DNA of 64,000 nucleotides from Mycobacterium sp. UM_CSW. GTDB lineage: Bacteria > Actinomycetota > Actinomycetes > Mycobacteriales > Mycobacteriaceae. The DNA lies in the NCBI RefSeq assembly GCF_000455205.1, contig NZ_AUWQ01000022.1:1-64000 (forward strand), in the 5' to 3' direction. How positions within the stretch are numbered: position 1 is the stretch's first letter; every line of letters begins with the position of its first letter. A program made the translations under genes and the position numbers. This document shows, one piece after another, positions 42,145 to 59,315 of this stretch. Under the pieces are notes generated by a model. The model ran no database searches, was not told the DNA's origin, and saw only the letters and a list, made by a program, of their open reading frames with translations.

Positions 42145-42371
42145 TCGTGGGGCTCCTTTTCTCAGGTCACCGGCGACCCGGAGGCGTCGTTGAACATCTA
42201 TGCAAATTATGTCACTATGTTCCCGAAATGAACGCCACTTGTCCGGCCTGAACCCACAGCGGGGATCCTTCCCAGGGAGTACGAGCCCGGCCGCGAGGCG
42301 TGCGCCCCACGTTCCCCGCTGGCCGCGAGAAACGTTGGCGGACTGCCGATCCGATGTCTGAAAGGGTGAAT

Positions 42372-43235
42372 ATGCCGGTCGTGATGCAAGGTGACCTCGA
42401 GATCGCTTACGAGATTATCGGCGAAGGTGAGCCTTATATCCTCACGGGGGGTGGCCGTTTCAGCAAGGATGCGGGCGGTGTCCGTGAGCTCGCGGAGGCG
42501 ATCGCGGATCGAGGCAAGAAGGTGGTCATCTACGATCGCCTCAACTGCGGTGCGTCCGCGGTGTGCTTCGAAGGCAGCTCGGAGTCGGTGATGCAGGCCG
42601 AGTCGCTCGCTCGCCTCATCGTGGACCTGGACCTCGGCCCGACAGTGTTGCTCGGTGGTTCCGGTGGAGCCCGGATCTCGTTGCTTGCCGCGGCGCGTCA
42701 CCCCGAGATCGCGCGCGCGGTGGTGATGTGGTGGCCTAGCGGCGGTGCGTTCGGCAGCATGTCGCTGGCCGAGGTGTACAACTTCCCCTCCATCCGAGCC
42801 GCGTGGAACGGGACGATGGCCGATGTCGCCGACGATCCCACGTGGGCCGAAGTCATCACGCGCAATCCGCGTAACCGCGACCGATTCCTGGCTCAGGACA
42901 AGCAAACGTTCATCGAAACGATGGAACGCTGGGCCCACGTCTACTGCGCATGCGGCAATCCGCTCGTAGCGGGCCTCACCGACGAAGAAGCCGCGGCGAT
43001 AACGCTGCCGGTACTCGTCTTTCGCAGTGGGAAGAGCGACTACTTTCACACCCGCGCGACGTCGGAACGTCTCGCGGCGAACCTACAGAACGCCGAGATC
43101 ATCGACCCGGTGTGGGGCGACCGGGAGTTCCTCGATCGATATGAGGACAGTCGAGACAACGGGGTGTCGGTCTGGATCAATTGGAAACAGCTTGCGCCTC
43201 AGATCGTCGACTGGACGGAGAAGGTCCTCGATTGA
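42372..43235 (+). CDS. Alpha/beta hydrolase
   Basis: A 287-residue alpha/beta-hydrolase fold protein. The nucleophile elbow GGSGGARISLLAAARHP supplies the catalytic Ser, GGGRFSKDAGG the oxyanion region, and LPVLVFRSGKSDYFHTRATS the late Asp/His region. I chose ATG 42372 because GAAAGGGTG precedes it; ATG 42354 lacks a ribosome site. Similar proteins hydrolyse C-C bonds or esters, which cannot be decided here. Confidence 0.8.
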   Translation: MPVVMQGDLEIAYEIIGEGEPYILTGGGRFSKDAGGVRELAEAIADRGKKVVIYDRLNCGASAVCFEGSSESVMQAESLARLIVDLDLGPTVLLGGSGGARISLLAAARHPEIARAVVMWWPSGGAFGSMSLAEVYNFPSIRAAWNGTMADVADDPTWAEVITRNPRNRDRFLAQDKQTFIETMERWAHVYCACGNPLVAGLTDEEAAAITLPVLVFRSGKSDYFHTRATSERLAANLQNAEIIDPVWGDREFLDRYEDSRDNGVSVWINWKQLAPQIVDWTEKVLD

Positions 43236-51477: not shown

Positions 51478-51789
51478 TTACCGAACGAATTCTGAAATTG
51501 CTTCGTTGTCATCGGTTTTTGGGTGGGGCTCGGGCGCTTCGTGCGCTTCGTGGTGCTGCGCCGAACCGCCGCGTGGCCGTCGTTCACCGACAGTCGCGAT
51601 GGCGTGCACAGGGCAGTCGAGCAGGGCGCGCATCACCCCGTGGCGGTCGTTCTGGGAAATAGTGCCGTCACCGATCAGCGTCGCGTAACCCCAGTCGTCC
51701 AACGAAAAGGTTTCCGGCGCATGCCTTGCGCAGATCCCGAACCCGTCGCACATGGTGCGGTCAAGCCGAATTCGCAAAGTTTCGCTCAC
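51478..51789 (-). CDS. Small ferredoxin, [3Fe-4S]/[4Fe-4S] type
   Basis: A 103-residue protein: RLDRTMCDGFGICARHAPET then ALLDCPVHAIATVGE. The Cys-x5-Cys ... Cys-Pro pattern fits actinobacterial [3Fe-4S] ferredoxins that feed P450s. GTG 51789 overlaps the NuoF-like stop (GTGA), confirming the start. It has a long Gly/Pro/His-rich tail after the Fe-S domain. Last gene of the electron-transfer operon. Confidence 0.85.
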   Translation of the reverse strand: MSETLRIRLDRTMCDGFGICARHAPETFSLDDWGYATLIGDGTISQNDRHGVMRALLDCPVHAIATVGERRPRGGSAQHHEAHEAPEPHPKTDDNEAISEFVR

Positions 51790-53084
51790 GAAGAACGCGC
51801 CTCCTCCACTTCGTAGGGCCGCTCTGCGGTGAAGACTCCAGCCCGGCACGTCGTGCACTGGTCAACGAGGTGATGCTCCACCGTTGTCGGAAACTGCTTC
51901 AGCAGACTCGACGCGATGTTGGCGGCGCCGTCGAGAGTGCCGCAGGCACCTCGGCCGCGTAGCACGACCGACCAGCGTTCCAACCGGGACACATCCTCGT
52001 GGTTCGCCACTCCGTCACGCAACGCCGACATGACGGCTGCCATCGCGGCGGTGCCGTTGAAGCACGAACCGCACTGACCGGCGTTCTCCCGGTCGAAGTA
52101 GGACAGCACAGCAGCAGCGACGGCTACGGGACAGTCATCAACGAGGATCGAGATCGCGCCGCATCCCAGACCGCTGCCGAGCCGGCGAATCGTTTCGTGG
52201 TCCAGTGTGGCATCCAAAATGTCGCGGTTGACCAGGCCTGCGAAGTAGCCCCCCATCAGTACTCCGCGCACGGTATCGGCGGTCACGCCGTGCAGCGCCA
52301 GTAGCGTGGAAAACTTAGCGCCGTGCGGGATCTCGTAGAGCGTGGCCGGCCGTCCGGCACCGGTGACCGTGGCCAGGAAGGTCCCGGATGACATGGTGGT
52401 GCCGACGTCACGAAATCGTTGCGCGCCGTTCTGGTGAAGGTAGGGCAGGTTGGCCAGCGTCTCGACGTTGCTGACGAGCGTCGGAAGACCCGAGACGCCT
52501 TCTTCGAACGGCCTGGGCGGCTTATCGGTGGGTTTGGCCGGTCCTCCGTTGATACGGCGCACCGCCGCAGTCTCCTCCCCGGCGACGTACCCCGGGTCCA
52601 CTGTCTGCACCGTGACGGCGGCCGAACCGTGGGCGTCCGCGTCGACTTCCGCCAGTGCGGTCGTTAGGGCGTTGGCCGACTGAGCATCCGACACGTACAC
52701 GTACGCGCGTCGCGCTCCGACCATCGCCGCTGCCAGTCGAAGTCCGTCCAGCACGAGGTGGGGCCGGTGGCGCAGCAGCCAGCGATCCTTGACCGACGCG
52801 GGCTCACCCTCTTCACCGTTCGCGACGACGACGGTGTCCAAACCACGGCGGCTTGCGTCGCGGACAGTCCTTAGCTTCGTAGCGGTCGGGAACGCTGCGC
52901 CACCACGACCGAGGAGACCCGACCGATGTACTTGCTCAAGCAGTGCGTCGGCGTTGGCGAGGGCCCGGTATCCGCCCGCGCTGGTGTAGTCGGCGTACTG
53001 CTCGCGTCCAGCGTCGCCCGGTCGGAGTAGTCGCGGCGCGCAGTCCGGCCATGCCGCGACGGCGAGATGGGTAGAGGTCGTCAT
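51786..53084 (-). CDS. Stand-alone NuoF-like NADH dehydrogenase flavoprotein
   Basis: A 432-residue homologue of the 51-kDa NADH:ubiquinone oxidoreductase subunit. LLGRGGAAFPTATKLRTVRD (58-77) and NGEEGEPAS (89-97) form the NADH/FMN site, GYVAGEETAAVRRINGGPAK and PTLVSNVETLANL follow. The C-terminal cluster region has Cys338-x2-Cys341 and Cys381, but the third Cys of the usual CxxCxxC is Gly344. Cys410 and Cys413 at the tail might compensate. Coupled by 4-base overlaps to the Rieske ferredoxin before it and the small ferredoxin after it. Likely oxidises NADH and reduces one of these ferredoxins (inference). Confidence 0.85.
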   Translation of the reverse strand: MTTSTHLAVAAWPDCAPRLLRPGDAGREQYADYTSAGGYRALANADALLEQVHRSGLLGRGGAAFPTATKLRTVRDASRRGLDTVVVANGEEGEPASVKDRWLLRHRPHLVLDGLRLAAAMVGARRAYVYVSDAQSANALTTALAEVDADAHGSAAVTVQTVDPGYVAGEETAAVRRINGGPAKPTDKPPRPFEEGVSGLPTLVSNVETLANLPYLHQNGAQRFRDVGTTMSSGTFLATVTGAGRPATLYEIPHGAKFSTLLALHGVTADTVRGVLMGGYFAGLVNRDILDATLDHETIRRLGSGLGCGAISILVDDCPVAVAAAVLSYFDRENAGQCGSCFNGTAAMAAVMSALRDGVANHEDVSRLERWSVVLRGRGACGTLDGAANIASSLLKQFPTTVEHHLVDQCTTCRAGVFTAERPYEVEEARSS

Positions 53085-53512
53085 GCCTGCACCCGGACCT
53101 CATTGCCGACAACCCGCACCGGATAGGTGCGGATGCTCCATTCGGGTTTGACCGCGGTGGTGCCGGTCGCCAATTCGAAACCCCATTGATGCCATGGGCA
53201 GTAGATGTATTCGAGGTCGCGAACCATCACCGCATCACCCGGCACGGCCTCGTCGACGATCGTGCGTCCGCGGGCACGCCCAGAGCACAGGGGTCCGCCT
53301 TCGTGTGGACAGTAGTTGGCGATGGCATAGAACGTCCCGTTGACGTTGTAGACGCCGACGCCGTGTCTGCCGATCGGCACCAGTTTGTGCTTCCCAGGGG
53401 CGATTTCGTCGACGGTGGCCACGACGTGCTCGCGCCCCTGCGCCAGCCTCGGCGTCGCCCGTTCCTCAGTCACCCTGACCGACTCTTCCGGCGGCGGCCC
53501 GACCGCAGACAT
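53081..53512 (-). CDS. Rieske [2Fe-2S] ferredoxin
   Basis: A 143-residue soluble Rieske protein: Cys68-x-His70 in NYCPHEGGPLCSG and Cys105-x2-His108 in YCPWHQWGFELATG are the cluster ligands. There is no catalytic domain, so it is an electron-transfer component of the kind that feeds Rieske oxygenases. ATG 53512 has GAGGGC upstream, and its stop overlaps the NuoF-like ATG. It follows the amidohydrolase at 53543 by 30 bases. Confidence 0.9.
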   Translation of the reverse strand: MSAVGPPPEESVRVTEERATPRLAQGREHVVATVDEIAPGKHKLVPIGRHGVGVYNVNGTFYAIANYCPHEGGPLCSGRARGRTIVDEAVPGDAVMVRDLEYIYCPWHQWGFELATGTTAVKPEWSIRTYPVRVVGNEVRVQA

Positions 53513-53542: not shown

Positions 53543-54685
53543 TCAGAACACCCGCACCTGACCCTCGAGGGCCGGCACGGTTTCGGGTAGATGGTAGGTC
53601 GCAATGCCGTTGCGGAACATGACTGCCTCCCGTGCGTGCTCGGGCAGATGCTTGACCAGCCAGCGCGGGTCGTCGAACGTCCAGTGCGGGTAATCGGAAG
53701 AGAACAGCAGGATCTTTTCGCACTCCATCCACTCGAGCGCGCGAGTCAGTTCCGACTTGTCCTCCGGATAGTCGAGCGGTTGAGTCGTGAACTTGATGTG
53801 ATCCTTCACGTACTCCGAGGGCTTGCGTTTGATGTCCATCCACGACTTTCGTGCCTCGTAAATGGCGTCCATCCGCCACATCAGCGGCAGGATCCAGTTG
53901 AACGCATGCTCGACGAGCACGATCCGTAGCGTCGGGAATCGGTCGAACAGGCCGTCGAAGATCATGCTCATCACCTGATTGGCGGCCAGTAGCGAGTAGG
54001 TGACCATGAAATCGTGGTTGTAGCTGGGGAAGCCGACGGGCGGCATCGGCAGTTCCTCGTGATGACTGCGCGACAGATGGCACGTCACCGTGATGTCGTG
54101 TTTGGTGGCGGCCTGCCATACCGGGTTGTACTTCGGGTCGCCCCACGCCGGCCTGGGCTCGGCTTTGATGAGGATCTGGCTCATGTAGGGATGCCCGGCC
54201 CAACGTTCGATTTCGCGGGCCGCGTCCTCGGGTGCCTCGATCGTTGCGCAGATGGATCCGCGCCAGCGCTCGTGCCAATTGTTGTGACTGTCCAGCCAGT
54301 GCTCGGCTTGCCATTCGTTGAGGGCACAGCTCATCGCGTGGGTCACTTCGGGGAAGCGCGACGGGTACGCACCAGGCTCGAGAATCGCTATGTCGGTGCC
54401 GGCCGCCATGATCAGCTGCTGGAACGCGAGGTCCGGATCACTGCCGGGGAACTCGCCATCAGCCGGGAAGGAGTCCACCCGCATCGCGTAGGCATGGGCG
54501 TAATCCGGTGCGTCGTAGTAGATCTGATCGCCGACCTTCTTCGACAGGAAGTACTTGCTGCGCCACGGTTCGGGGATGTACTGCGCCAGCACGCCGATCT
54601 TGGGAACAGGGTGCACATCGGAGTCGACGCACCGGACTCCGATGCGTTCCGCTGCGGGCTTGCGTTCTGTAGCTGAGATTGTCAT
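53543..54685 (-). CDS. Amidohydrolase family 2 protein
   Basis: A 380-residue TIM-barrel amidohydrolase: GVRCVDSDVHPVPKIGVLAQ supplies the DxH-type metal site, DITVTCHLSRSHHEELPMPP the middle His, IVLVEHAFNWILPLMWRMDA and ILLFSSDYPHWTFDDPRWLV the final Asp. The start is ATG 54685 with GAGGAG upstream. Same operon as the amidohydrolase at 54711, which it resembles but is not a recent copy of. Confidence 0.85.
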   Translation of the reverse strand: MTISATERKPAAERIGVRCVDSDVHPVPKIGVLAQYIPEPWRSKYFLSKKVGDQIYYDAPDYAHAYAMRVDSFPADGEFPGSDPDLAFQQLIMAAGTDIAILEPGAYPSRFPEVTHAMSCALNEWQAEHWLDSHNNWHERWRGSICATIEAPEDAAREIERWAGHPYMSQILIKAEPRPAWGDPKYNPVWQAATKHDITVTCHLSRSHHEELPMPPVGFPSYNHDFMVTYSLLAANQVMSMIFDGLFDRFPTLRIVLVEHAFNWILPLMWRMDAIYEARKSWMDIKRKPSEYVKDHIKFTTQPLDYPEDKSELTRALEWMECEKILLFSSDYPHWTFDDPRWLVKHLPEHAREAVMFRNGIATYHLPETVPALEGQVRVF

Positions 54686-54710
54686 TGTGGGCTCCTCGTC
54701 AAACGTCTCA

Positions 54711-55817
54711 TCAACTTGCGCCGACGCCGGCGTCGACGTCGATTCCGTACAGGTGGGCGGCATTTCGCCAACACAGCTTGTCGCGCTGTTCGTCTGAGAA
54801 TGCCTGGGGCACAGCTAGCTCGTTCAACTGCCAGTGCGGGTAGCTGGACCCGTACATCACCATGTCGTCTTTACCTGTGAAGCTCGCCCACTCCCCGGCG
54901 AACTCCACATCTCCTGGACCGTCCATTGCGCCCTGGACGAAGAACGTGTGGCCGGGTAGATAATCACTCGGCATCTTCGGAGCCCACGGCGTCTGCTCCA
55001 GATGCGGACGGCCAAAGCAGTCCATCCGCCAGATGAACGGCGTCAGCATGTCGGCGGCGCCGTCGGCCCACACGAACTTCAATGTCGGCATTCGCTCGAA
55101 CACACCCTCGACGATGAGATTCATCTGGTGGTAGAGGAAGTTGAGGGCCATGAAGCTGAGGTAGTTCTCGTAGGTGCGCGGAACCCCCGACGGAGTCGGC
55201 GAGAATTGCACGCCTGATCCCACTTCGATGTGCACCGCGACAGGCAGGTTGGCGGCGGCCGCGGCCTCCCAGAGCGGCCAGTACTGCGGTTTTCCGTAGA
55301 GTTCGCGTGATTGCAGGGGGACACCGATCTGCACGACGCGCGGGTGATCCTTGAGCCTGTTGACCTCGCGTACGGCCCCGACGATGTCGTCGGGATTGAC
55401 GCGAATCGTCCCGCGGTAGCGTTCGGCGAAGGGGTTATCTTCCAGCCAGCGTGACACCATCATCTCGTTATGCGCGGATGCGATCGCGGTCCCCAGGTGT
55501 CGATCCGGCATTATTCCCCTGGTCATGGGGTGGAGTATTGCGATATCGACACCGCGCTTGTCGAACAGGTGCCTGCCCGCGATCTCGGGATCGGAACCCG
55601 GATACCCGTCGTCGGGGCCCTCGGTGCCCGGAGCGTACTCGCCACCAGGCGCGCCGAACCAGTCCATCTCGTAGTCCGGGAACCCGCGGCTCTTGAACGG
55701 CTCGCGAAGGAAGTTGCGCCGCAGATCCTTGTTCGACTTGCTGAAGATGTGCACGCTGGCGTCGATGAGGGGCGTGCTGGTGCCGTCCGGATGCAGCATC
55801 ACCACGGCCGTGCCCAT
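54711..55817 (-). CDS. Amidohydrolase family 2 protein
   Basis: About 368 residues: LIDASVHIFSKSNKDLRRNF replaces the usual N-terminal HxH with an AxVH form, LPVAVHIEVGSGVQFSPTPS, LKFVWADGAADMLTPFIWRM, and MVMYGSSYPHWQLNELAVPQ. The final catalytic position where most members have Asp (SDYPH) reads Ser (SSYPH), so the metal site may be altered. ATG 55817 or GTG 55835 could be the start; neither has a strong ribosome site. It heads the five-gene operon 55817-51478. Confidence 0.78.
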   Translation of the reverse strand: MGTAVVMLHPDGTSTPLIDASVHIFSKSNKDLRRNFLREPFKSRGFPDYEMDWFGAPGGEYAPGTEGPDDGYPGSDPEIAGRHLFDKRGVDIAILHPMTRGIMPDRHLGTAIASAHNEMMVSRWLEDNPFAERYRGTIRVNPDDIVGAVREVNRLKDHPRVVQIGVPLQSRELYGKPQYWPLWEAAAAANLPVAVHIEVGSGVQFSPTPSGVPRTYENYLSFMALNFLYHQMNLIVEGVFERMPTLKFVWADGAADMLTPFIWRMDCFGRPHLEQTPWAPKMPSDYLPGHTFFVQGAMDGPGDVEFAGEWASFTGKDDMVMYGSSYPHWQLNELAVPQAFSDEQRDKLCWRNAAHLYGIDVDAGVGAS

Positions 55818-56164
55818 TCGTGAGTGCCTATGCACCCGTCGAGGATGCGGAGTGAATCCGCAACGCCCTTGCGGGCCGAGTGCATGGGGTTATTTCTCAC
55901 GTCCCACCTCCTAGCAGTGGTTTTCATCCCGGTCTCGTCCAACGGTTCCTCACACCCGCAACGGTGATGACGCCCGCGGCGTCCGCCGGAGCAGGTCGTT
56001 TGCCATCCACGTTCCTTTGACGACGACGAGGAGCCGCCGACCGTCCGCGAAGCACGTCGCGCTGCCTCCATTGACGATAGGACATTTTTTGACCTAATGT
56101 ACAGCATGGCAGCGGTTCGAATCGTCCGAACCGGCTAAAACGGTGATGGGTCTTCACGCGGATT

Positions 56165-57535
56165 ATGCGTTCGGATCTCGAACTCGACGCCGCCGTTGTA
56201 CACGATCGAGGTCGGCAACTTAGACGTTGTGACGCACAGATCCCTCAGGCTAGGAGAGAAGCGATTACTACGACCACATCAAGTTCACCACGGCGGTACC
56301 ACCGCCACAACATCTCGTCCGCGAGTTTCTGGGACTTGGGGTTTCGTGAGCGCGACGACGTCTTCGCCGAGCTGCGATCCGAAGACGGATTGACCTGGCA
56401 CGAGCCGTTCAATTCCCCGTTTCCGCATGAGGAAACGGGCTTCTGGGCGGTCACCAAGCACGCTGACGTGAGGTTCGTCAGCATGAACAGCGACCTCTTC
56501 GTGTCCAGCGAGGGCATCTCCATCGAGCCGATGCCGGCCGAGATCCAACGGGCGACCGCCTTCTTCCTCACCATGGATCCACCGCAGCACACGCGCTACC
56601 GGCGCCTGATCAGTTCGGCGTTCACTCCACGGCAGGTGCGCAAAATCGAGCAGCAGATTCGCGACAACGCACGCGAGATCGTCGACGACCTCCTCGATGC
56701 ACTGCAGGACGGCGCCGAGGTCGACTTCGTCGCCGAGTGCGCGTGCAAACTTCCCATGCACACGATTTCCGACATGATCGGGATCGACCGCACCGATCGA
56801 GACGTCATACTGGCTGCAGCGGAAGCGCTGTCCGGGGCGGGCGACGACGACTACACCGCGTCCGAAGACAAAGCGATCCACATGATGACGCAGTTCGGAG
56901 TGCTGACCCAGGCCGGCATCGACCTGGCTCAACGACGTCGCGTAGAAGGTCGCGACGACCTGATGACCAACATTGTCAATGCCGAAATCGATGGGCACCG
57001 GTTAACCGACGACGAGATCGGAGCGTTCCTCGTCTTGCTGTCGGTAGCGGGCAGCGACACGACCAAACAGGCGACGTCTCACGCCCTGAAGGCCTTGATG
57101 GACCGTCCGGAGCAACTCGCCTGGCTGATGGCCGATTTCGACAATCGCATCGACTCGGCGATCGACGAGTTCGTCCGGTGGGCGACACCCGTGCTGTCCT
57201 TCGCGCGGCACGCAGCCGTGGACACCGAAGTCGGCGGAACGCCCGTGAGGGCCGGCGAAAAGCTCGGCCTCTTCTACTGTTCGGCAAATCGCGACGCCGC
57301 GGTGTTCGACGACCCGCACGAGTTCCGTCTGAATCGCACGCCCAACAACCACTTCGGTTTTGGCGGCGGGGGCACGCACTTCTGCCTCGGCAGTAATTTG
57401 GCCCGGATGGAGTTGCGCAGCCTGTTCTTCGAACTGCTCACCCGGCTGCCGCAGGTGTCGATCGGCGCACCTGAATATCTCAGTGGCAGCAGCGTGATTC
57501 ACGGCATCAAGCGAATGCCCATCAAGCGCGTGTGA
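56165..57535 (+). CDS. Cytochrome P450
   Basis: A P450 of the CYP125/142-like shape: EEIGFWAVTKHADV-type N-terminal strand (ETGFWAVTKHADVRFVSMNS), I-helix VAGSDTTK, ExxR in DEFVRW, and heme-binding FGFGGGGTHFCLG. The start is uncertain: ATG 56165 gives 456 residues, but homology starts about residue 48 and the only good ribosome site (AGGAGAGAAGCG) precedes an ATT at 56264, not a normal start codon. It is divergent from the amidohydrolase operon, which carries a ferredoxin set that could serve it. Confidence 0.85.
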   Translation: MRSDLELDAAVVHDRGRQLRRCDAQIPQARREAITTTTSSSPRRYHRHNISSASFWDLGFRERDDVFAELRSEDGLTWHEPFNSPFPHEETGFWAVTKHADVRFVSMNSDLFVSSEGISIEPMPAEIQRATAFFLTMDPPQHTRYRRLISSAFTPRQVRKIEQQIRDNAREIVDDLLDALQDGAEVDFVAECACKLPMHTISDMIGIDRTDRDVILAAAEALSGAGDDDYTASEDKAIHMMTQFGVLTQAGIDLAQRRRVEGRDDLMTNIVNAEIDGHRLTDDEIGAFLVLLSVAGSDTTKQATSHALKALMDRPEQLAWLMADFDNRIDSAIDEFVRWATPVLSFARHAAVDTEVGGTPVRAGEKLGLFYCSANRDAAVFDDPHEFRLNRTPNNHFGFGGGGTHFCLGSNLARMELRSLFFELLTRLPQVSIGAPEYLSGSSVIHGIKRMPIKRV

Positions 57536-57908: not shown

Positions 57909-59315
57909 TCATCCGTCGGCGTCATCGACTCCGAAGATGAACCGATCGGCGATCCGGTGCTCGTTGCGGATCGACATCTCTTGATTGGTGTTGAGCCACA
58001 GTCCCTCAAATCCACGCGAGTGCATGCCCGCATGGATGGCATCGATGTTCATGAGGTCTTGCGTGGGCAGCTCCCCCCACCCGTCATGGTCCTGCCAGCG
58101 CTCGAACTCGAGCCAGCTGGTCTCAGGGACCTCGCCGGGCGGGAAGTGCTCGAGCGAGAACATTTCGAACACACAGCGATTGGGGTCTTCGGCGTCGGGA
58201 AGCATCCGGTAGCCCAGCACGCACGACTTCTCCACGAGGATGACCAGGGTGGGAAAGACGTGCCAGTCGCCATTGCCCGCGAAGTACTCCTCCATCGACA
58301 TCTTCGGGTAATCGACACCCTCGGCAATGGCGAGTTCCTCGCACATCTGGTGGTAGATCACAAAGGGCGGGATGGGACCGGGTTCCATGTCGGCCATCTG
58401 CTGTGCGACGCGGTAATCGCGTTCGGTGACCAGGGAGTTGATCTCGAGATACTGGTATTGCATCCCATTGGCGAAGATCTTGGGCGATTTCTCCCGCTCC
58501 TCGCGGGCTTTCCCACCGGTGCTGTCGGGACGCGCGGTGTAGATGAAGCGCGAGTGGTTGCGGTACGGAGTGGTCGGGGTATAGGGCGCGTAGATGTACT
58601 CCTGGGGTTCGGCCGGCGCGGTGGAGGCCCGCACGCCCTGGTCGGCCCTGACCGTCTGCGGATGCGTACCGGGGCTGTGATAACCCTCGATGAATGCGTC
58701 GATGACTGTCTTGTAGTTGGCCGCCAACGGAGTCCGCTTCCGCCACCGGAACCGCATGTCATGCAGGCGGAACGGCGCAAGCGCCGTCGGAAGCGGGTCG
58801 AGCCAGTCGAGCAACGCCGGCGGATCCTCGGCCATCGTGATGAATACCCAGCCGCCCCAGGTATCGACCTTCACTGGCCGCAGAGCCCACTGCTCACGCG
58901 GCCGGTCGAGAAACTCGTCGCGGGACGGGACGAACGAGGAGCGACCGTCGAGCGCATATCGCCACCCGTGGAACTCGCACCGTAGGTGACCGCCGACAGC
59001 GCAGCCGTGACCCCGCACCACTTTCATTCCGCGATGGGCGCACGTGTTGTAGAACGCCTTGATACTCCCGTCCTTTTGCCGTACCACCATGATCGACTCC
59101 CTGCCGATGGTGTACTCGTGATAGCTACCTGGATCAGGGATCTCCTCCTCTCGACAAGCCGGTTGCCACACCTGCGTAAAGAGGCGGTCGAGTTCGAGTT
59201 GGAGGAACTCGCGGTCGATGTAGCGCCCTTTGGGGACGAACGTTTCACCGCACGCATAACGCGGGGGCACCTTACCCGTTGCCCTCAGATCGGTTGCCTC
59301 ATCGATGGCGGTCAT
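57909..59315 (-). CDS. Rieske non-heme iron oxygenase, alpha subunit
   Basis: A 468-residue ring-hydroxylating-type oxygenase. Rieske cluster Cys92-x-His94 and Cys113-x2-His116, then the mononuclear iron region NYKTVIDAFIEGYHSPGTH with His213 and His218, and Asp206 bridging. No beta subunit gene adjoins, so it resembles single-subunit (type III/IV-like) oxygenases. Requires a ferredoxin; the Rieske ferredoxin at 53081 is a candidate. Divergent from the SRPBCC gene at 59521. Confidence 0.9.
   Translation of the reverse strand: MTAIDEATDLRATGKVPPRYACGETFVPKGRYIDREFLQLELDRLFTQVWQPACREEEIPDPGSYHEYTIGRESIMVVRQKDGSIKAFYNTCAHRGMKVVRGHGCAVGGHLRCEFHGWRYALDGRSSFVPSRDEFLDRPREQWALRPVKVDTWGGWVFITMAEDPPALLDWLDPLPTALAPFRLHDMRFRWRKRTPLAANYKTVIDAFIEGYHSPGTHPQTVRADQGVRASTAPAEPQEYIYAPYTPTTPYRNHSRFIYTARPDSTGGKAREEREKSPKIFANGMQYQYLEINSLVTERDYRVAQQMADMEPGPIPPFVIYHQMCEELAIAEGVDYPKMSMEEYFAGNGDWHVFPTLVILVEKSCVLGYRMLPDAEDPNRCVFEMFSLEHFPPGEVPETSWLEFERWQDHDGWGELPTQDLMNIDAIHAGMHSRGFEGLWLNTNQEMSIRNEHRIADRFIFGVDDADG

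Follow-up and report, generated by a model that had tools for sequence, protein, structure and literature searches.

Which oxygenase is served by a NuoF-like flavoprotein that is encoded away from complex I and between two ferredoxins of different types? The question is raised by a locus of Mycobacterium sp. UM_CSW that lies in the 64,000 nucleotides analysed here (contig NZ_AUWQ01000022.1, positions 1 to 64,000; hereafter the window). Genes for a Rieske ferredoxin, the NuoF-like protein and a small ferredoxin (Fd) follow one another there, preceded on the same strand by two genes annotated as amidohydrolases, which we call AH1 and AH2. Our reading is that the five genes probably encode a multicomponent monooxygenase of the amidohydrolase-related dinuclear oxygenase (ARO) kind, in which the NuoF-like protein and Fd would form the NADH reductase, acting in series with the Rieske ferredoxin and AH2.

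An earlier note on this DNA, written from the letters alone, had the layout right. The three electron-transfer genes overlap by four bases each, with ATGA at the Rieske/NuoF junction (53084-53081) and GTGA at the NuoF/Fd junction (51789-51786), where Fd starts with the GTG inside the overlap. The NuoF-like gene stands outside any complex I operon: there were no matches to a NuoE- or NuoG-type family among the 20 open reading frames (ORFs) scanned with Pfam, which are part of the window's ORFs, and the complex I nuoF of the same genome is a separate gene on another contig (L001). AH1 and AH2, which the note placed ahead of the electron-transfer genes, are both Amidohydro_2 proteins that score above the PF04909 gathering score. 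Pfam also finds the oxygenases that were noted nearby, namely two P450s and one Rieske oxygenase alpha subunit. It was one of these, a P450 or the Rieske oxygenase, that the note took to receive the electrons.

The choice of acceptor depends on what AH1 and AH2 are. In sequence searches the nearest characterised PDB relatives of both proteins are AROs, not mononuclear PF04909 enzymes. For AH2 the best matches (E-values in brackets) are 8sm7 (3.6e-57), AibH2 (6m1w_B, 1.9e-51) and SfbO (3.4e-51), against 1.7e-12 for the best non-ARO match, the decarboxylase 4icm. AH1 matches 8sm7 first (6.9e-46), then 8sm8, 8sm6 (SfbO) and 6m1w, with 4icm at 3.2e-10. The dinuclear site of AibH2 is formed by D25, H27, H211, E265, D337 and H340 (Hibi 2021, PMC7782822), and all six ligands have aligned counterparts in AH2 (D49, H51, H229, E285, D357 and H360). 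Gaps aside, none of the six is substituted in an alignment of 96 AH2 rows, which counts some places more than once. At the corresponding motifs AH1 has S27, H29, H202, D258, S331 and H334, each found in 85 to 88 of 88 rows. A Rieske protein gene with C-x-H...C-x2-H adjoins the pair, as expected of AROs, and the gene order AH1-AH2-Rieske-reductase is the same as aibH1-aibH2-aibG-aibF. Given how close they are to AibH2, 8SM7 and SfbO, that one partner is degenerate, that a Rieske gene lies alongside and that the gene order agrees, AH1 and AH2, though annotated as hydrolases, are probably an oxygenase of the AibH1H2 kind.

Alternatively, the amidohydrolases could catalyse ordinary hydrolysis or decarboxylation in the same pathway, with the electron-transfer proteins supplying only a P450 or the Rieske oxygenase. 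The presence of P450s and a Rieske oxygenase near the genes fits this proposal, but AH1 and AH2 are far nearer to oxygenases than to decarboxylases, as the E-values above show. Moreover, in the three plasmid records examined, out of 20 found, the Rieske gene accompanies the amidohydrolases and no P450 is annotated. We regard this alternative as unlikely.

The operon position of the NuoF-like and Fd genes argues for their role as the reductase of the ARO. On pRHL2 of Rhodococcus jostii RHA1 the order is amidohydrolase (AH)-Rieske-AH-VanB-type reductase. The same order occurs on contig C69 of the genome studied here (L223:4248-11965), together with a separate AH-Rieske pair, and the C69 reductase (Fer2/NAD_binding_1) is 57% identical to that of pRHL2. 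Since NuoF-Fd takes the same operon place as the VanB-type reductase in both sets, we read it as the ARO reductase; and since the VanB-type protein carries its own Fer2 domain, Fd would be the counterpart of that [2Fe-2S] domain. Contig C12 holds a Rieske-AH-AH set (L222:4916-7574) with no reductase among the called ORFs; a nearby ORF (L222:3518-4486) was considered for that role and rejected, being an esterase by Pfam. The window Rieske protein shares 46-52% identity with its counterparts in three other probable ARO sets and 27% with that of a fourth.

The linkage of these genes was followed in a scan of named genomes, which gave 357 relatives; the results below concern the best 80 of the 357, all from Mycobacteriaceae according to their record titles. 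These best relatives suggest that the genome studied here is Mycolicibacterium-like. The order AH1-AH2-Rieske-ABH1-NuoF-Fd, where ABH1 is an alpha/beta hydrolase gene, is complete in 72/80 loci and the other 8 start inside the run at the first available bases, so the linkage is not due to chance. NuoF is followed by Fd in 80/80 loci, and in all 78 loci with both Rieske and NuoF the two are separated by ABH1. The order amidohydrolase-amidohydrolase-Rieske-NuoF-Fd, which the earlier note proposed to look for, is therefore kept, but with ABH1 intervening in these canonical loci. Downstream are a ChsH2-like OB-fold/thiolase fusion (77/80), a second alpha/beta hydrolase, 3-hydroxyisobutyrate-dehydrogenase-like proteins (74/80) and one or more CYP190-like P450s (74/80), and two divergent acyl-CoA dehydrogenase genes lie upstream in 64/80. 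These neighbour counts are for at least 45% identity to one Pfam-annotated representative, with several loci cut by contig ends, and 'CYP190' denotes a context match to the Fdx6/CYP190A3 of Child 2018, made without sequence comparison. The acyl-CoA dehydrogenases, the ChsH2-OB/thiolase fusion, the 3-hydroxyisobutyrate-dehydrogenase-like enzymes and the CYP190-like P450s suggest that the canonical operon serves to break down a branched acyl-CoA or a terpenoid-like compound. One genome has, besides an intact copy (L121), a second canonical copy with fragmented genes (L125, G392:C1:1-12000) that is either broken or badly sequenced.

The window copy is without ABH1, without the canonical genes downstream of Fd and without the CYP190-like P450; the P450 that adjoins AH1 shares just 32% identity with the canonical CYP190-like P450. 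In three further loci (G343, G604 and G883) the five genes likewise follow one another with no ABH1 between them and with no CYP190 found, so these genes can occur as a set of their own. Around the same three loci no P450 of any kind was found in stretches of 13-20 kb, and a P450 is therefore no fixed part of the system. A second copy in the genome studied here, on contig C68 (L114), does contain ABH1, and the OB-thiolase and CYP190-like genes of this genome are found close to the beginning of contig C17. By phylogeny, the window copy groups with canonical copies from other species (100/99) and the C68 copy belongs to a different group (91/87). An ORF elsewhere in the window (42300-43235, + strand) is 38% identical to ABH1. 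In a wider class sample of 394 genomes, 25/26 genomes of the window's genus carry the gene, and in a family sample 21/201 genomes have a match at E <= 1e-100.

All 74 places in the class sample that matched the NuoF family at E <= 1e-58 were tabulated with 6.5 kb on either side, several being cut by contig ends; the places share descent and are not 74 independent events. At identities of at least 55%, an ARO alpha gene, a Rieske ferredoxin and a ferredoxin with Phe at its variable cluster position were each present in 29/29 places, and a P450 was within reach in 22/29. Two ferredoxins at ARO loci that first appeared to lack the Phe proved to be false first pattern matches. In this group, G343 and the window also carry a ring-hydroxylating oxygenase (RHO). 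At 45-51% identity the neighbour was an RHO in 7/10 places and, by Pfam, a heme oxygenase in 1/10, with none found in 2/10 (one near a contig end); the ferredoxin was of the Tyr type in 9/10 and of the Arg type in 1/10. At 44% identity or less, an ARO, RHO or heme oxygenase was found in 0/35 places at the thresholds used, and a looser search gave one weak RHO match (G548/L157). Instead, a ferric-reductase-like membrane protein and/or an FAD:protein FMN transferase was present in 32/35 (L119, L124, L128, L148-L163 and others), which suggests that this sister branch belongs to a membrane electron-transfer complex. The strict ferredoxin pattern matched in 21/35 of these places, with Arg in 11, His in 7, Ala in 1, Lys in 1 and Phe in 1 (G482). 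The variable cluster residue of the ferredoxin thus tracks the oxygenase partner. At the heme oxygenase locus, L139 (G570:C18), a single run includes genes for the heme oxygenase, the NuoF-like protein, a ferredoxin of the Arg type and a VIT1-like protein; here the reductase pair adjoins an oxygenase of a third kind.

The two closer NuoF branches therefore adjoin an oxygenase in 37/39 places and the third branch in 0/35. The dedicated NADH-to-oxygenase supply proposed in the earlier note agrees with the former figure, but its choice of acceptor is probably wrong. The sequences, the gene order and the neighbourhood all indicate the amidohydrolase pair as the likeliest oxygenase, not the P450s or the Rieske oxygenase.

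Matches were also found in 120 plasmid records, of which five were examined. The order is RHO beta, RHO alpha, isochorismatase, NuoF, ferredoxin on the R. pyridinivorans YF3 plasmid; RHO alpha, permease, NuoF on R. opacus pR1CP1; and FMN transferase, ferric-reductase-like protein, NuoF, ferredoxin on the R. qingshengii plasmid. The other two, one of them from Variovorax, carry NuoF relatives that retain all four cluster cysteines. No relatives were found in viral contigs.

The P450s that so often lie close by raise a second possibility, a branched supply in which the NuoF-like protein reduces the Rieske ferredoxin (for the ARO) and Fd (for a P450/CYP190 or the Rieske oxygenase) in parallel. 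The CYP190-like genes downstream in the canonical loci are in its favour, as are P450s near the ARO genes in 5/6 further family loci (G854, G904, G895, G833 and G845, but not G883) and the RHO directly downstream of AH1-AH2-Rieske-NuoF-Fd in G343. Ferredoxins of this type are also known P450 partners; M. marinum Fdx6 (CXXFXXC, 97 aa) is encoded near CYP190A3 (Child 2018, PMC6237146). However, G343, G604 and G883 keep the ferredoxin with no P450 in the stretch fetched, and 7/29 ARO-linked places have no P450 within 6.5 kb, a weaker point since at L058, L062 and L076 one lies farther off. We therefore rank the branched supply as a possibility that falls well short of the series arrangement, though in the canonical operon Fd may also serve P450s or a Rieske oxygenase.

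The NuoF-like protein itself differs from complex I NuoF. It scores well under the NuoF equivalog cut-off (TIGR01959, 224.5 against 558.65 bits). Its residues were compared in 151 rows from which known repeats had been removed, 149 of them distinct over the compared stretch; ARO-group rows were assigned by neighbourhood, or for a few contig-cut loci (e.g. L025 and L041) by whichever operon genes they contain. The first cysteine of the N3 cluster is replaced by Ala or Ser in 134/134 family rows (Ala in the window protein) and is Cys in 17/17 relatives from complex I, hydrogenases and other enzymes; the remaining three cluster cysteines are kept in all 151. The same loss is seen at 74/74 homologous places of the class sample (Ala 72, Ser 2). 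A C-terminal CxxC is present in 100/100 ARO-linked and 7/9 Rieske-oxygenase-linked rows, and its second Cys in 1/22 ferric-reductase-linked rows. Residue 191 is Arg in 112/112 oxygenase-branch rows, 3 of which are linked to neither an ARO nor a Rieske oxygenase. A tree of 75 rows places the ARO-linked sequences in a single clade (100/99) and the ferric-reductase-linked ones in their own (100/100); the Rieske-oxygenase-linked rows are not monophyletic.

Among the best PDB relatives of the NuoF-like protein are HydB and NfnB subunits. One entry is named as bifurcating, and electron bifurcation is known for HydB/NfnB-type enzymes. Together with the two ferredoxins in the run, this raises the idea that NADH electrons are split between a high-potential Rieske protein and a low-potential [3Fe-4S] ferredoxin. 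But no HydC/NuoE-like partner was found among the ORFs scanned, the first N3 cysteine is lost throughout the 74 places, and the RHO operon of R. pyridinivorans YF3 has a single ferredoxin beside NuoF. Bifurcation is thus very improbable.

The two ferredoxins are well conserved. Rieske CxH...CxxH is present in 94/95 relatives, the sole miss being the fragmented L125; a stricter CPHEG pattern misses 21/95. The Fd motif, CDGFGIC...CP, is of the CXX?XXC(X)nCP type with Phe at the variable position and is conserved in relatives. Because of this motif and the similarity to PDB entry 4id8, its cluster is likely to be [3Fe-4S]. The ferredoxins of ARO loci extend 13-60 residues past the last CP (93 loci, often 42-43), and those of other oxygenase-branch loci just 8 residues in 11/12.

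Several observations weigh against our interpretation. The mononuclear zinc site of AibH1 (D24, H26, H201, E255 and D328; Hibi 2021, PMC7782822) is not kept in AH1, where S27, D258 and S331 replace D24, E255 and D328, as judged by motif placement with AibH1 unaligned. In AH2, 94/96 rows have Thr at the position of AibH2 Asp342, the loss of which lowers activity in AibH2. The six-ligand pattern is also unspecific. There are 45 PF04909 places in the genome, including AH1, AH2, a third window protein (AH3) and the C68 pair, and of the 39 others aligned, 31 show the pattern, the ligand reading being unsure at L184, L185, L189 and L191, where the chosen ORF scored near zero. Three of the 31 (L193, L194 and L200) are ARO candidates themselves, and AH3 shows the six residues too. 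The pattern was accordingly discarded as a marker of AROs: judged from these alignments it is necessary for an ARO but insufficient alone. Its frequency among the paralogues would mean either many undescribed oxygenases or a pattern common to other enzymes. As for the reductase, the Arg at residue 191 in 100/100 ARO-linked rows stands against F, Y or W in 17/17 four-cysteine relatives. The aromatic residue stacks on NADH in Thermus Nqo1, so NADH binding by the NuoF-like protein may differ. The four-cysteine relative on the Variovorax plasmid (L129) has a Rieske protein gene some 7 kb away, and loss of the cysteine is therefore unnecessary for such a neighbourhood. Finally, ABH1 usually splits Rieske from NuoF, P450s are usually close, and a conventional reductase, FdR1, sufficed for several mycobacterial ferredoxins of this type.

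With these points considered, we still favour the series arrangement. AH1 and AH2 would form an AibH1H2-like hydroxylase with AH1 as the non-catalytic partner, and a dinuclear Mn/Fe or diiron centre in AH2 would activate O2 and hydroxylate a C-H bond. NADH would pass electrons to the FMN of the NuoF-like protein, from which they would move through its three-cysteine cluster and the [3Fe-4S] cluster of Fd to the Rieske ferredoxin and finally to AH2. What the sequences show directly are the gene order, the protein families, the metal ligands, the missing first N3 cysteine, the constant pairing of NuoF with Fd and the ferredoxin residue that follows the partner; we infer the use of NADH, the cluster types, the direction and order of electron flow and the hydroxylation. 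NuoF and Fd would jointly replace a one-piece FMN/[2Fe-2S] reductase of the AibF/VanB type, with Fd as its ferredoxin domain. The features of the window are listed in Table 1; by homology the likely start of AH2 is at about 54685, not 54763.

Table 1. Predicted components of the system and neighbouring oxygenase genes in the window.
Feature	Position	Strand	Basis
AH1, PF04909 TIM-barrel protein with degenerate metal site; likely alpha'/AibH1-like subunit	54711-55835	-	Pfam Amidohydro_2, PDB relatives
AH2, PF04909 protein; likely catalytic alpha/AibH2-like subunit	53543-54763	-	Pfam Amidohydro_2, PDB relatives
Rieske [2Fe-2S] ferredoxin, AibG-like; predicted electron donor to AH2	53081-53512	-	Pfam Rieske
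NuoF-like NADH:acceptor flavoprotein (FMN domain, 3-Cys cluster site, C-terminal CxxC)	51786-53084	-	Pfam Complex1_51K and NADH_4Fe-4S
Small ferredoxin, motif CDGFGIC...CP, likely [3Fe-4S], long C-terminal tail	51478-51789	-	Pfam Fer4_15/Fer4_13
P450	40157-41374	-	Pfam
Divergent P450 adjoining AH1; possible member and second acceptor	56165-57535	+	Pfam
Rieske oxygenase alpha subunit; possible member and second acceptor	57909-59315	-	Pfam

For many mycobacterial ferredoxins, and for most AROs, the reductase that acts in the cell is, to our knowledge, not established. Our analysis offers a single, testable reductase family for AROs and for a group of Rieske oxygenases, and indicates that genes annotated as hydrolases in an operon conserved across mycobacteria encode a probable Mn/Fe or diiron monooxygenase. 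It also provides a natural series in which the ferredoxin cluster residue and the oxygenase partner vary together, and suggests a route from a respiratory-complex subunit to a stand-alone reductase. The wider proposal, to which we give even chances, is that the NuoF-like protein and Fd form a general plug-in NADH reductase for oxygenases as unrelated as AROs, RHOs and a heme oxygenase. It would be an undescribed third type of ferredoxin reductase beside FNR and GR, arising through loss of NuoE, NuoG and one N3 cysteine and having its ferredoxin cluster residue (Phe, Tyr or Arg) matched to the oxygenase.

The earlier note knew of no characterised system of this make-up, and the literature surveyed bears this out. 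No NuoF-type reductase for AROs, Rieske oxygenases or P450s is described in the titles and abstract openings listed by searches aimed at NuoF, a search that most subscription journals lie outside. NuoF or Nuo is absent from the main texts of Hibi 2021, Powell 2023, Child 2018, an M. neoaurum redox-partner screen and a Rieske oxygenase classification. By title and abstract opening, three listed papers in which NuoF occurs together with P450 or Rieske concern poly-lysine omics (PMC10157215), degradation of polycyclic aromatic hydrocarbons with added NADH (PMC13274426) and oil-sands transcriptomes (PMC13374859).

Each part of the system resembles a known one. With complex I NuoF and HydB/HoxF/FdhB the window protein shares an FMN/NADH domain and a cluster domain, but it differs in the replacement of the first N3 cysteine (Ala/Ser in the family), the extra C-terminal CxxC, the Arg for aromatic 191, the lack of any NuoE or NuoG seen here and the pairing with a [3Fe-4S]-type ferredoxin. 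Fd resembles the mycobacterial CXX?XXC(X)nCP ferredoxins, in particular Fdx6, in its variable Phe, long chain (97 aa in Fdx6) and CYP190 neighbour; from this context, without sequence comparison, we would take the two to be orthologous. In Child 2018 (PMC6237146), however, FdR1 and FdR2 are named as the likely reductases, and its main text mentions neither 'NuoF' nor 'NADH dehydrogenase'. Type V RHOs combine a [3Fe-4S] ferredoxin with a GR-type reductase (Kweon 2008, PMC2358900). The RHO-linked relatives here share the [3Fe-4S]-type ferredoxin but have a NuoF-like reductase, and neither 'Nuo' nor 'NADH dehydrogenase' occurs in the main text of that paper.

The oxygenase has its closest parallels among the AROs. 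SfbO and other AROs, which were identified by gene neighbourhood (Liu 2024, PMC10811679; PDB 8SM6-8SM9), are likewise PF04909 oxygenases adjoining a small Rieske protein; the system here differs in its heteromeric pair and candidate reductase module, and the accessible text of Liu 2024 names no NuoF-type reductase. AibH1H2-AibG-AibF, the 2-aminoisobutyrate monooxygenase of Rhodococcus wratislaviensis (Hibi 2021, PMC7782822; Powell 2023, PMC10401708), also consists of two PF04909 subunits, a Rieske ferredoxin and a reductase in the same order, with six dinuclear ligands in the second subunit (AibH2, AH2) and a 3-hydroxyisobutyrate-dehydrogenase-like gene in the aib cluster as in the canonical loci. 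Differences are the AH1 site, the Thr for AibH2 Asp342 and the amino-acid catabolic aib genes, which are not seen among the annotated neighbours here, and another substrate is expected. Above all, the FMN/[2Fe-2S] reductase AibF has its place taken here by a NuoF-like protein and a separate small ferredoxin. AROs with Rieske partners were known already; what would be new, as far as the sequences indicate, is the pairing of an ARO with a reductase that is split in two and unrelated to the known kind.

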